Positions 9,028-13,623 of a stretch of 20,036 nucleotides of DNA are shown here, one piece after another. The position numbers and the translations under genes are program-made. Position 1 is the first letter of the stretch; every line of letters begins with the position of its first letter. The DNA comes from a virus: the IMG/VR virus record IMGVR_UViG_3300048586_000042, positions 1 to 20,036 of that record; one strand, 5' to 3'. The notes beneath the pieces were generated by a model, which saw nothing but the letters and a program-made list of their open reading frames with translations, did not search any database and was not told the origin of the DNA.

Positions 9028-10935
9028 ATGGCAATTCGCACCATGTTCGACGGCCTGATCAACGCCCTGTCCGGAATGGGCACCACGACCGACGTGCGGA
9101 CGCGGACTGGCTATGCTTTCGTGCCGCTCGACCGGGTGCAGATCGAGGCCGCCTATCGAGGCTCCGGGCTCATCCGCAAGATCATCCGCATCCCGGCCGA
9201 TGACATGGTGCGAGAGTGGCGCGACTGGCAGGCCGAGCGCGATCAGATCACGGCGCTGGAGGCGGAGGAGCGCCGCCTGAATGTGCGCACCAAGGTGCGG
9301 CAGGCCGAAATCCTGCGCGGACTTGGCGGCGGGGCGCTGATCCTCGGCGCGCCCGGCGATCCGGCGCAGCCGCTGCCGACGAACATGGGCGTCGGCTCGC
9401 TCGCCTACATCCACGTCGTGAACCGCTGGCAGCTTTCGTTCAGCGCGCTTGTCGACGATCCGGTTGACCCGCTGTTCGGCGGCCCGCCCATGTTCACCAT
9501 GCCGACCACGCGCGGCCAGCGGCAGATTCACCCGTCCCGCGTCGTCTGTTTCCGGGGCGACCCGCTTCCAGAGTTGACCGGCACGGCGCGCACGGAAGAC
9601 AGCTTCTGGGGCGAAAGCCGCATCGAGGCCATCCTTGACCCGGCGAAGGATGCGGACGCGGCGCGGCAGGCCTTCTCTGCGCTGATCCAGAAGGCGCGGC
9701 ATACCCGCATCGGCATTCCGGGCCTGCTGGAGATCGCGGCGACGCAAGAGGGGGAGCAGATGATCTCCCGGCGGTTCCAGGCCCTCGCGCTGTCGGAGAG
9801 CAACTACAACGTCACCCTGTTCGACGCCGGGATGGACGGCAAGGACGGCGAGGCGATCACCGACCATCAGGTCACATGGACCGGCATTCCGGAGATCATG
9901 AACGCGTTCGCCATGTTCCTCGCCGCCGTGGCCGATATCCCGGTCACGCGGCTGATGGGGCGTGCGGCGGAGGGCATGAACGCCAGTGGCGACAGCCAGC
10001 AGCGAGACTGGGCGAAGGCGATCAAGGCGCGGCAGACGCTGCAGCTGCAGCCCTGCCTTGACCAGCTGGATGCTGCACTCATCCCGTCGGCGCTTGGGAG
10101 CCGCCCGGCTGAGGTGTGGTGGGAGTTCGCCTCCCTCGATCAGCCGACGGACAAGGAGGAAGCCGACCGCTTCGCTACGTGGATGGGCGCGATGGAGAAG
10201 CTTCAGGCAACGGCGGCGATTCCGGAGGTTGCGTTTGCCAAGGCGATTCAGACCGGCATTGTCGAGAATGGCTGGGCTCCCGGCCTTGAAGGCGCGCTGG
10301 ACGAAATCCCCGAGGCCGACCGCTATGGGATCGAGCCGGACGAGGACGACGGGACGGACCCGAGCGCGCTGACGCAGCGGCCGGACACTGACGAGCCTGA
10401 CGAGGACGAGGCGGACGAAGGGGCGCGCACTGCAAATGACGCGGCGGCATGGATCGCCGATGGCGAGCCGAAGCCGCTCTATGTGCAGCGCAAGCTCGTT
10501 AACGCAGCCGAGTTGATCGCTTGGGCTCGCGCAAACGGCTTCGAGACGACCCTGTCAGCGGCAGACATGCATGTGACGGTGCTTTACAGCCGCGCTCTCG
10601 TCGATCCGATGAAGATGGGCCGGGACTGGCGCGAAGATGAGCGCGGCGAAATCGCGGTCAGACCGGGCGGTCCTCGTGCGATTGAGCGGCTTGGCGAGAA
10701 TGCAGTGGTGCTGCGGTTTGCCTCGCCCGATTTGGAATATCGGCACAAGGATCTGATAGAAGCCGGTGGCAGCCACGACTATCCCGACTATCAGCCCCAC
10801 GTCACGCTAAGCTATACGGTGCCGGACAGCTTAGACCTGAACGCGATCAGGCCGTTCAATGGCGCGCTGCGGTTCGGCCCTGAAATCTTCGAGACGCTCG
10901 ATTTGGATTGGAAGTCGAAGATCAGGGAAGCCTGA
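9028..10935 (+). CDS. Portal protein (DUF1073 type) with C-terminal Acb1-like 2H domain
   Basis: A 635-residue portal that would form the ring through which DNA enters and leaves the head. The N-terminal ~430 residues match the DUF1073 portal type, with IRKIIRIPADDMVREWRDW and IPVTRLMGRAAEGMNASGDSQQRDW from about residue 304. A very acidic linker (about 436-470) leads to a separate domain starting PLYVQRKLVNAAEL. That domain has two HxT motifs, HVTVLYS (His515, Thr517) and HVTLSYT (His591, Thr593), the signature of 2H phosphoesterases and of the anti-CBASS nuclease Acb1, which degrades cyclic oligonucleotide signals. Databases link DUF1073-type proteins to Acb1 for this reason. The portal role rests on position and motifs; enzyme activity of the tail domain is an inference. 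Its stop overlaps the next start (TGATG). Confidence 0.88.
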   Translation: MAIRTMFDGLINALSGMGTTTDVRTRTGYAFVPLDRVQIEAAYRGSGLIRKIIRIPADDMVREWRDWQAERDQITALEAEERRLNVRTKVRQAEILRGLGGGALILGAPGDPAQPLPTNMGVGSLAYIHVVNRWQLSFSALVDDPVDPLFGGPPMFTMPTTRGQRQIHPSRVVCFRGDPLPELTGTARTEDSFWGESRIEAILDPAKDADAARQAFSALIQKARHTRIGIPGLLEIAATQEGEQMISRRFQALALSESNYNVTLFDAGMDGKDGEAITDHQVTWTGIPEIMNAFAMFLAAVADIPVTRLMGRAAEGMNASGDSQQRDWAKAIKARQTLQLQPCLDQLDAALIPSALGSRPAEVWWEFASLDQPTDKEEADRFATWMGAMEKLQATAAIPEVAFAKAIQTGIVENGWAPGLEGALDEIPEADRYGIEPDEDDGTDPSALTQRPDTDEPDEDEADEGARTANDAAAWIADGEPKPLYVQRKLVNAAELIAWARANGFETTLSAADMHVTVLYSRALVDPMKMGRDWREDERGEIAVRPGGPRAIERLGENAVVLRFASPDLEYRHKDLIEAGGSHDYPDYQPHVTLSYTVPDSLDLNAIRPFNGALRFGPEIFETLDLDWKSKIREA

Positions 10936-11777
10936 TGCGCTACGATCTGGCCGCGATAACCCGTCGGGCAGGAAAGCGAAGGCGCGGCCGCGTCATCATC
11001 CGCGACATCGCGCCGCCCTCGACGCTTGCGACAGACCTGTTCCGGAACTGCTACCTGCCCGTCATCGACCTGTGGGAGCAGGCGCTGCCGGGGATCGAGG
11101 CGGAATATGCGCGCGCGCTGTCGCAGATGGTGACCGACAGCGCTGACGACGTGCAGGTTCGGATTGATGCCGCCGATGGGCTGTTCCAGCGCCTACTGAT
11201 AACGCTGACCTGGCGGCTGCGCGACTGGGCGATCCGAACCGAGGCATGGCAGCGCGGCCGCTGGCGCGGCGCGGTGCTGTCCGCGACTGGTGTCGATGCC
11301 GGAACGCTTATGGGGCCTGAGCCGGTTCGCGCGCCGCTTGAGGCCGTGGTGCGGCGCAACGTGGCGCTGATCAAGGACGTGCATGCGCAGGCGCAGGGCA
11401 AGATTGCGGATGCTGTGTTCCGGGGGCTGACGCAGAGGCGCCCGGTGGCGGAGGTGGCGAAGGATATCCGTGAAGCTGTGGCGATGGGACGCGCGCGGTC
11501 GAGGCGGATCGCGAGCCACCAAATGGCAGCTTTGACGAGCAGCCTTGCAGACGAAAGGCGCAGGGAGGCCGGAATAACCGAATGGCAATGGGTCCACTCG
11601 GGAAAACTGAATCCGCGCAAGTTCCATCTGGAGCGGGACGGCAAGGTCTACACTGATGATCCGGAGCGTGTAGGCGAAGAAATAAACGGCAAGAAGATCA
11701 GTGAGGCGCCAGAAGACAGGCCCGGTCAACTGCCCGCATGTGGGTGTCGTTCGCGCTCTGTGATTGATTTGTCTTAG
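10935..11777 (+). CDS. Mu F-like / SPP1 gp7-like head morphogenesis protein
   Basis: A 280-residue minor head protein made next to the portal, as usual for this family, which is thought to be packaged inside the capsid. The family signature is the C-terminal region: RSRRIASHQMAALTSS, then ITEWQWVHSGKLNPRKFHLERDGKVY and finally PGQLPACGCRSRSVIDL, with the His and paired Cys typical of the Mu F domain. The first half is helical and Arg-rich. ATG 10935 is preferred because it overlaps the portal stop (TGATG); an in-frame upstream start at 10908 lies inside the portal gene. The gene ends at TAG 11775-11777, followed by the inserted HNH gene and its hairpin leader. Confidence 0.88.
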   Translation: MRYDLAAITRRAGKRRRGRVIIRDIAPPSTLATDLFRNCYLPVIDLWEQALPGIEAEYARALSQMVTDSADDVQVRIDAADGLFQRLLITLTWRLRDWAIRTEAWQRGRWRGAVLSATGVDAGTLMGPEPVRAPLEAVVRRNVALIKDVHAQAQGKIADAVFRGLTQRRPVAEVAKDIREAVAMGRARSRRIASHQMAALTSSLADERRREAGITEWQWVHSGKLNPRKFHLERDGKVYTDDPERVGEEINGKKISEAPEDRPGQLPACGCRSRSVIDLS

Positions 11778-11796
11778 GATTTCAGGCAGAAAAGGC

Positions 11797-11855
11797 GGGC
11801 CGCAACGGTGCTACCAACACCGCGCGGCCCTTACCACCACGCGAAAGGGCCGCGC
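11797..11855 (+). promoter_or_regulatory. Two mutually exclusive hairpins before the HNH-AP2 gene
   Basis: A central strand GCGCGGCCC (11822-11830) can pair in two ways. Upstream, 11797-11803 (GGGCCGC) pairs with 11824-11830 and 11806-11810 (CGGTG) with 11818-11822, giving a 7+5 bp stem around a 7-nt loop. Downstream, 11847-11855 (GGGCCGCGC) pairs perfectly with 11822-11830 for 9 bp around a 16-nt loop. The second form ends 1 nt before the HNH start codon at 11857 and buries the AAAGGG ribosome site. This looks like an attenuator or translational switch. Leader hairpins that hide ribosome sites are known for phage homing endonucleases. Confidence 0.65.
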
Positions 11856-11856
11856 C

Positions 11857-12462
11857 ATGGCTAGCCGAGCCGATATCACCCCTGACCTGTGCCGCCAACT
11901 GCTCCGCTATGAGCCAGAGACCGGCAAACTGTTCTGGAAGCCGCGTCCGGCGAGCATGTTTGAGGACAGTCCCTACCGTGGTGGCGTTCGAACTGCGGAG
12001 TGGGCTTGTAATGCCTGGAACTCCAAGTGGGCTGAGGCGGAAGCGTTCACGGCGTCGAACGGCGCCGGTTATCGGGTTGGGGCAATCGCCGGAGTCAATT
12101 TTCGCGCCCACCGGGTTGCCTGGGCAATCGTCCATGGCGAGTGGCCGGCTGACCAGATTGACCACATCAATGGCGACAGAAGTGACAACCGGCTCGATAA
12201 TCTGTTGCCTGTCACCAATGCCATCAATCACCAAAACGAAGGCCTGCCGAAGAACAACACAAGCGGCGTCGCCGGTGTTTACTGGTGTAAGCACACCGGT
12301 AAGTGGAGGGCATTGGTCAAGGTGAATTACAAAAGCAGGTGCCTTGGTCGGTATGCCACGATTGCGGAAGCACAAGCGGCCCGAAAAGCCGAGTTGGATC
12401 GGCTTGGGTTCGCTGAAGGTCATGGGCAACGAAGGGCTTGGTCGCCCCCCCCCAAATCCTGA
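11857..12462 (+). CDS. HNH homing endonuclease with AP2 DNA-binding domain
   Basis: A 201-residue free-standing endonuclease. The nuclease core is QIDHINGDRSDNRLDNLLPV, then NAINHQN (His103, Asn115, His125), preceded by the FRAHRVAWAIVHGEWP helix-strand typical of HNH_3 enzymes. An AP2-like three-strand domain follows from about residue 133: NNTSGVAGVYWCKHTGKWRA, then GRYATIAEAQAARKAEL. ATG 11857 follows AAAGGG; the open frame upstream is non-coding leader. It interrupts the head operon between the Mu F-like gene and the protease gene and brings its own hairpin leader, so it is a mobile passenger. Codon use is less GC-biased (AAT, AAC, GTT frequent) than in the head genes, consistent with later arrival. 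A run of nine C lies near its end. Confidence 0.9.
   Translation: MASRADITPDLCRQLLRYEPETGKLFWKPRPASMFEDSPYRGGVRTAEWACNAWNSKWAEAEAFTASNGAGYRVGAIAGVNFRAHRVAWAIVHGEWPADQIDHINGDRSDNRLDNLLPVTNAINHQNEGLPKNNTSGVAGVYWCKHTGKWRALVKVNYKSRCLGRYATIAEAQAARKAELDRLGFAEGHGQRRAWSPPPKS
12445..12453 (+). repeat. Run of nine C near the end of the HNH-AP2 gene
   Basis: Nine consecutive C encode the prolines of SPPPKS, directly before the stop. A one-base change would move the frame past the normal stop and the 14-nt element into the next region. It is a slippage-prone or error-prone tract. Confidence 0.9.
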
Positions 12463-12504: not shown

Positions 12505-13623
12505 ATGCAATTCTGCGACGCCCTCACGCTGGACGCGCCCCGCCGCACAAAGGACGGCTATCTCGTCGTGCGCGCCAAGGCGGCGCGGACCGGCGTCTAT
12601 GAATACACCGGCCGCGAGATCGATCCGCAGAACAAGCACGGCTTGCGGGACACGGCTGTCGTCAAGGTGCTGCGCGATGACGCCACCGTGTTCGACGCCG
12701 CCGCCGTCCGCAGCTTCATCGGCAAGCCCGTCACAGACGACCACCCGGCCCAGCCCGTCACTGCCGACAACTGGCGTCAGCACGCGCGGGGCGCTGTCAT
12801 GGGCGCGATGCGGGATGGGGAATATCTCTCGTTCGACCTGATGCTGGCCGACGCCTCCGCCATTCGGAAGGTCGAAGGCGGCAAGCGCGAACTGTCGAAC
12901 GGCTACGCGGCCGAGATCGAATTCGGTGATTTCGCCGCGCCGGACGGCACGAAGTGCCAGGCCCGGCAAGCCCGCATCATCGGCGGCAATCATGTCGCCC
13001 TCGTCGATCGGGGCCGCGCTGGCCCTGACTGCGCGATCAAGGACCGCTTTGCGGTCTGCGACGCGAACCCAGAGGCCATCGCGCCTCTTTCCAACCACAA
13101 GGAGACGCCAGCGATGGCAGGAACAATCATTGTTGACGGCCTGCCCGTGTCGCTGGCCGATGAGGCGGCGGTTCGCGCCGTGCTCGCCAAGAAGGACGCC
13201 GCCATCGAGGCGGCTGACAAGGCTGTGGCCGATGCGAAGGCTGTGGCCTCTACGCTGAGCGGCGAGAAGGCGGCCCTTGAGAAGGCGCTGGCCGACGAGA
13301 AGGCCCGCACCGAACCGGCTGCACTGGACAAGCTGGTTGCCGATCGCGCCGACCTGGTGGCGAAGGCCAAGGCCGCGAAGTCCGATATCGTGACGGACGG
13401 CAAGACCGACGTGGAAATCCGCCGCGCCGTGGTCGAATCCGCCCTGGGTGATGCCGCCAAGGGCATGGACGACGCTGCGATTTCCGGCGCGTTCGCTGTC
13501 GTCACCAAGGACGCCAAGCCCGGCACCGCCACGGCAAAGGCCGACCCCATCGCCCGCCCCGCGAGCTTCGCGGACACGGCTTCCATCGCCGCCGCTGCCC
13601 GCGCCGGCCGCTACGCCAACTGA
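12505..13623 (+). CDS. DUF2213 prohead protease fused to a scaffold domain
   Basis: A 372-residue protein with two parts. Residues 1 to about 190 match the DUF2213 phage family, a predicted head-maturation protease: YLVVRAKAARTGVYEYTGREI, GKPVTDDHP, RGAVMGAMRDGEYLSFDLMLAD, ELSNGYAAEIEFGDFAAPDGT and IIGGNHVALVDRGRAGPDC. Residues about 204-372 are Ala/Lys/Asp/Glu-rich, helical and coiled-coil-like, typical of scaffold, with a C-terminal helix ending AARAGRYAN. Prohead proteases commonly carry scaffold as a C-terminal domain; an internal start (13114) would make scaffold alone. The start has no clear Shine-Dalgarno but is placed 45 nt after a 14-nt stop-linked repeat, as at the portal. It precedes the cement and capsid genes, the usual order. 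Confidence 0.85.
   Translation: MQFCDALTLDAPRRTKDGYLVVRAKAARTGVYEYTGREIDPQNKHGLRDTAVVKVLRDDATVFDAAAVRSFIGKPVTDDHPAQPVTADNWRQHARGAVMGAMRDGEYLSFDLMLADASAIRKVEGGKRELSNGYAAEIEFGDFAAPDGTKCQARQARIIGGNHVALVDRGRAGPDCAIKDRFAVCDANPEAIAPLSNHKETPAMAGTIIVDGLPVSLADEAAVRAVLAKKDAAIEAADKAVADAKAVASTLSGEKAALEKALADEKARTEPAALDKLVADRADLVAKAKAAKSDIVTDGKTDVEIRRAVVESALGDAAKGMDDAAISGAFAVVTKDAKPGTATAKADPIARPASFADTASIAAAARAGRYAN
13114..13623 (+). CDS. Probable separate scaffold product from an internal start
   Basis: ATG 13114 is in frame with the protease gene and lies behind AAGGAG (13099-13104) at 9 nt, the best ribosome site in the 1.1-kb gene. It would give a 169-residue product beginning MAGTIIVDGLPVSLADEAAV, exactly at the boundary between the protease domain and the Ala/Lys-rich coiled-coil part. 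This is the arrangement of lambda C/Nu3, where one gene gives protease-scaffold fusion and free scaffold. The site is visible; its use is inferred. Confidence 0.55.
   Translation: MAGTIIVDGLPVSLADEAAVRAVLAKKDAAIEAADKAVADAKAVASTLSGEKAALEKALADEKARTEPAALDKLVADRADLVAKAKAAKSDIVTDGKTDVEIRRAVVESALGDAAKGMDDAAISGAFAVVTKDAKPGTATAKADPIARPASFADTASIAAAARAGRYAN

Follow-up and report, generated by a model that had tools for sequence, protein, structure and literature searches.

A phage portal protein with a C-terminal domain assigned to the Acb1 family and a predicted intact catalytic site

We analyzed a stretch of viral DNA of 20,036 nucleotides (IMG/VR record IMGVR_UViG_3300048586_000042, positions 1 to 20,036), hereafter called the window, and found that its portal protein ends in a domain of the 2H phosphoesterase type. 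Profile searches and a predicted fold support the assignment of this domain to the Acb1 family, with a catalytic site that appears intact in the sequence. We think it rather probable that the domain is an active cyclic-oligonucleotide phosphodiesterase, which would be made together with the late head operon and would act against CBASS in the cell that produces the phage.

The 20-kb window is a virus fragment with a packaging and head operon. The operon contains the genes for the small and large terminase subunits, the portal, a MuF protein, an HNH protein, a DUF2213 protein, a cement protein and the major capsid protein, and the portal gene comes after the gene of the terminase large subunit. 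The features used in this study are as follows.

9028-10935, plus strand: portal gene with the predicted C-terminal Acb1 domain, 635 amino acids (open reading frame, Pfam and model)
9139-10197, plus strand: portal core, residues 38-390, Phage_portal_3 (DUF1073; Pfam E 7e-97)
10336-10437, plus strand: acidic linker, residues 437-470, predicted disordered (pLDDT under 50)
10474-10917, plus strand: predicted Acb1 domain, residues 483-630 (PF23474 E 3.9e-39; fold match to 7t27, Z 16.9)
10570-10578, plus strand: putative first catalytic motif, HVT 515-517, aligned to the first HxT (HTT) of FBB1 Acb1
10798-10806, plus strand: putative second catalytic motif, HVT 591-593, aligned to the second HxT (HIT) of FBB1 Acb1
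10882-10884, plus strand: E619, probable equivalent of Acb1 E141, placed by its offset from the second motif and not by coordinate superposition
10935-11777, plus strand: MuF-like head morphogenesis gene, starting inside the portal stop codon (PF04233 E 1.4e-8)
12505-13623, plus strand: DUF2213 gene in the protease/scaffold slot (Pfam); its relatives in Bosea prophages bear an N-terminal Acb1

The DUF2213 protein shows, by eye only, an H...S...H pattern (DDHPAQ, ELSNGY, GNHVALV) like that of assemblin-type prohead proteases. Between the MuF and DUF2213 genes (11764-12462) lies a homing-endonuclease-like protein with an HNH_3 match and a weak AP2 match. Positions 43-2082 hold an open frame of a C5-cytosine methylase, of which the Pfam match is split in two stretches. 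Inside this frame, in a different reading frame, there is a zinc-ribbon/HNH-like ORF (944-1807, best part 1352-1807) whose HNH_3 and DZR_2 matches are weak and below the cut-off.

The original prediction had described paired HVT motifs 76 residues apart in the portal protein, and both were found exactly at residues 515-517 and 591-593 of the 635-residue frame. It had also described a separate domain after an acidic linker. The linker is acidic, its residues 437-470 are predicted to be disordered, and the Acb1 match follows at residues 483-630. The domain had been given as the last 160 residues; it is indeed there, but its proper start is near residue 480, slightly inside the earlier start. In the predicted model of the full-length protein, an ordered portal part, which matches the portal of phage Pam3 (8hds_A, Z 27.6), is followed by the disordered linker and by an ordered domain, once more with a match to Acb1.

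The linker ends in a short RRAAND-like motif, as in the related loci L149, L151 and L197; in the window, residues 468-470 are the AND of ARTANDA. The motif was seen in 35 of 47 portals with Acb1, in 19 of 27 without it and in roughly half of the portals of Mu type, and we take it to resemble the beginning of the ssrA degradation tag (AAND...). We also considered an internal start that would release a free Acb1. No SD-like start of this kind was present near the beginning of the Acb1 domain in the window, the relatives showed no excess over a control stretch (26 versus 35 of 172), and the idea was abandoned.

The domain alone matched the Acb1 profile PF23474 with an E value of 1.7e-40 and 138.5 bits, about five times the cut-off of 27. 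A chance match is ruled out by the E values of the portal core and the Acb1 part listed above. PHROG 755, which bears the name RNA ligase, spans the same stretch as the Acb1 match, and the NCBIfam and PADLOC searches returned no Acb1 match. Among PDB sequences, the protein matched the Pam3 portal from end to end (E 1e-30), the Acb1 of FBB1 (E 1e-10) and the Acb1 of Burkholderia phage BCSR5. An AlphaFold model of the domain, calculated with 54 related domains as input, had a pLDDT of 92.1. The structure closest to this model was a solved Acb1 and not a different fold, namely that of FBB1 (7t27; Z 16.9, 1.9 A over 134 residues). The BCSR5 Acb1 followed with a Z of 14, and the LigT-type 2H enzymes were clearly lower (Z 10.9).

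The domain shares with Acb1 (T4 gp57B, FBB1, BCSR5; PF23474) the sequence family, the 2H fold and the HxT/HxT tetrad, and probably also the equivalent of E141 and the C-terminal Trp. In contrast, T4-like Acb1 is a free protein whose gene stands beside that of the tail fibre chaperone 57A, whereas the Acb1 domain of the window is fused to the portal through a disordered linker and is encoded in the head operon.

In Acb1, catalysis involves H44, T46, H113 and T115 together with stacking aromatic residues, and E141 touches the adenine (PMC9117128). Our initial relatives had been found with patterns that demanded HVT and were unusable for a test of conservation. The viral contigs were therefore searched again with the portal core alone, because the pattern search would have been circular. 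The resulting sample consisted of 80 loci, of which 50 had an in-frame Acb1 (47 complete), 27 were complete without Acb1 and 3 were cut off.

All four catalytic residues were intact in 44 of the 47 complete domains; some loci are near-duplicates, so these 47 do not amount to 47 independent events. In the first motif His and Thr were each kept in 46 of 47, and in the second motif His was kept in 46 and Thr or Ser in all 47. The three losses each concerned a single residue: L180 has H591Y, L184 has H515Y and L209 has T517A. No variation was seen at the positions of Y485 and E619 (47/47), an aromatic residue stood at position 585 in 46 of 47, and W628 was present wherever the sequence reached it; by alignment offset, these residues would correspond to the adenine-contacting Glu and the base-stacking aromatics of Acb1. 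The catalytic columns ranked among the most conserved of the domain in the 47 relatives, and the median dN/dS of the domain was 0.19 over 868 pairs, which are not independent of each other. As judged from the sequences, the conservation of the catalytic residues together with the low dN/dS is what one would expect of an enzyme in use. The profile match, the predicted fold, the retention of the catalytic residues and purifying selection thus all speak for the proposed Acb1-like 2H phosphoesterase domain at the end of the portal.

Portals without Acb1 mostly terminate directly after the same kind of linker. The DNA of L149 and L151 is 96% identical up to the domain boundary and 98% identical past it, with Acb1 present in only one of the two. 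Among Mu-type portals, in which an inserted Acb1 separates the core from a conserved tail, portals with cores 93% identical also differ in having it, and the contig L162 has kept the two ends of the domain but lost what lies between them. Blocks of about 520-560 nt are common to portals that are merely 34-45% identical. For example, a stretch of 526 nt that coincides with the Acb1 domain is 93% identical between L013 and L017, whose portals are 34% identical; the pairs L015/L017 and L217/L189 show the same pattern of domain-sized similarity between distant portals. The reverse was found for L015 and L217, whose portals are 97% identical and whose Acb1 domains are 45% identical. As for the window itself, its Acb1 domain is nearest to that of L016 (78%), of which the portal is only 37% identical to the window portal, and its portal is nearest to that of L148 (62%), with Acb1 domains 54% identical. 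In these comparisons, the Acb1 domain behaves as a swappable cargo cassette and not as a part of the portal.

Two further candidates were set aside. The pair L030/L035 was dropped as an example of a swap, because its DNA is similar throughout. A natural split between portal and Acb1 seemed to exist in Synechococcus phage Yong-M3-232 (L002, OM868076.1), where the frame is broken by an exact tandem duplication of 127 nt. Its near twin Ssp-JY40, whose gene is fused, has a record shorter by exactly 127 bases, and the duplication that splits the portal gene (1559-1720 of OM868076.1) is probably an untrimmed assembly overlap.

Acb1 was also found in the C-terminal part of two other portal families, Portal_Mu (L083, L117 and their relatives) and the HK97-type Phage_portal (L111, with L118 and L121 assigned by similarity). 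It lies at the N-terminus of DUF2213 (L140, L142) and of the S78 prohead protease (L132); in L141 it stands between NUDIX and an XkdF-type protease. With the DUF1073 portals included, the partners comprise three portal families and three proteins of the protease slot. A tree of 83 Acb1 domains had 10 changes of partner label, part of which were due to cut or broken contigs, and in this tree, made with a quick method that carries a long-branch warning, the fused domains stood apart from T4-like gp57B. The portals of L078 and L116 have about 190-220 extra residues C-terminal of Acb1 that belong to no recognised family.

The same portal tail may also carry PBECR3-like nuclease domains, alone in L157, L181 and L187 and after Acb1 in L079; of these domains only that of L181 scored above the Pfam cut-off, and the assignment in L065 was made by visual inspection. 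The PBECR fusions to portal and MuF proteins likewise place an effector domain at this site in relatives, but PBECR has another fold and is a predicted RNase. Virion-delivered effectors of the polyvalent or MuF type have their effector domain joined to a head protein, and the window portal shares this architecture. We tentatively entertain, at somewhat less than even confidence, the idea that Acb1 is a mobile cassette which has been grafted repeatedly onto proteins of the procapsid interior and which would serve either virion delivery or placement on the assembling head, of which one part, the prohead protease, is reportedly sensed by CBASS. The prohead protease of phage Bas13 is reported to interact with a CBASS sensor, as relayed in PMC12409349, which cites Richmond-Buccola 2024. 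A functional link between the Acb1 domains on protease-slot proteins and the sensing of the prohead protease by CBASS is only a hypothesis.

We next consider whether the domain might have only a structural or assembly role in the portal, a 2H enzyme being no more than its ancestor. It does sit on a structural protein, and the few copies with one lost catalytic residue agree with such a role. Against it, the catalytic columns are among the most conserved, the same domain moves among unrelated partners, and 27 of the 80 sampled portals are complete without Acb1, some of them near-identical to portals that bear it. The Pam3 portal (8hds) is also informative, as it is a homologue of the window portal over its whole length including Acb1 (37% identity there, with HIS as the second motif), and its solved chain is the portal part only. 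That is, 442 residues were modelled out of a sequence of 621; the structural match to the portal part stops at about residue 432, and none was obtained for the Acb1 part (464-619). The unbuilt part is therefore probably flexible or gone, outside the ordered ring, which makes a structural role unlikely. We regard such a role as very improbable. The comparison clearly leans to a domain that would be active, and we prefer this because near-identical portals occur without the domain.

If the domain is active, we suppose the following course of events. The Acb1 domain, with its putatively intact catalytic site, would hang on a flexible acidic tether at the end of the portal and would be produced together with the late head operon. 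It would cleave cyclic di- and trinucleotide alarm signals, for example 3'3'-cGAMP, inside the infected cell, and the CBASS effectors would stay off until the phage is assembled and the cell lysed. We infer the catalysis, the substrate, the timing and the action in the cell where the phage is assembled. T4 Acb1 becomes active some 15 min after the start of infection, at the time when the late CBASS response also begins (PMC9117128), and for this reason action in the producing cell is favored. There are points against this reading. A late enzyme bound to the portal would be weak against a CBASS system that fires early, a position inside the procapsid would hide the assembled copies from the cytoplasm, and in 3 of the 47 relatives one catalytic residue has been replaced.

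It had also been predicted that the domain would be present in every virion and could be delivered or act early. This part fared less well, the portal being in the late head operon and the Pam3 domain being unbuilt, a finding compatible with a flexible tether as well as with removal; the virion might deliver the domain. Portal C-termini point into the capsid interior, and portals remain with the emptied capsid outside the cell, so delivery would require release of the domain from the portal. In such a scheme, fusion to procapsid-interior proteins would be the loading mechanism, and a domain in the capsid lumen, freed at the linker by, for example, the prohead protease, would be ejected with the DNA and would pre-empt CBASS in the next cell. 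Every fusion partner found is a head protein, PBECR3-like nuclease domains occur at the same site, packaging and injection have already been proposed for such fusions, and an unbuilt domain in the Pam3 virion portal would be expected if it had been cut off. On the other hand, no cleavage site was seen, a flexible tether accounts equally well for the unbuilt domain, and a particle would hold only a dozen copies. We consider this course, the main alternative, unlikely, but far from negligible.

It may also be asked whether the substrate is RNA, that is, whether the domain acts like LigT on 2',3'-cyclic phosphate ends or tRNA fragments and not on CBASS signals. The name of PHROG 755, the common fold of the LigT-type enzymes and the mention of RNase among the 2017 suggestions for portal-2H fusions (PMC5512222) speak for it. 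The LigT-type structures nevertheless match the model clearly less well than Acb1 does, the invariant E619 and W628 appear to match features of Acb1, and all 10 Acb1 proteins tested, including that of T4, cleaved CBASS signals (Hobbs 2022). An RNA substrate thus appears improbable.

As to the hosts, a SMODS match above the cut-off occurred in 16 of 36 genomes bearing Acb1. Among 299 Sphingomonadaceae genomes, 31 had SMODS and 9 had Acb1 above the cut-off, and no association between Acb1 prophages and CD-NTase genes was seen in these small numbers; with a single overlap, no host association is shown. The frames that hold the nine Acb1 matches were all 615-701 residues long, which corresponds to the length of portal fusions.

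Fusions of portal and 2H domains are already a known type. Fusions of 2H domains with portal and MuF domains were reported by Iyer et al. (2017), who proposed a possible degradation of nucleotides of counter-invader systems (PMC5512222), a survey of 2022 restated the portal-2H proposal and added packaging and injection (PMC9503650), and Pfam already names the domain Acb1. These fusions have the same architecture as the window portal, and the same idea of action against nucleotide-based immunity was put forward, but they were predictions made before or without the Acb1 assignment. In the literature searched, which covers subscription papers poorly, we found no paper linking Acb1 to portals by name. 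The present analysis adds the membership in the Acb1 family, an active-site count unbiased by the motif, the exchange of the cassette, the partners in the protease slot and the unbuilt domain of Pam3. If the domain is active, an enzyme of immune evasion would be tied to an essential structural protein, so that its production would be in step with head assembly and it would perhaps be packed in every particle. Isolated phages, for example phiPSA1, RHEph04 or Pam3, would then offer a direct test of a virion-borne anti-CBASS activity.
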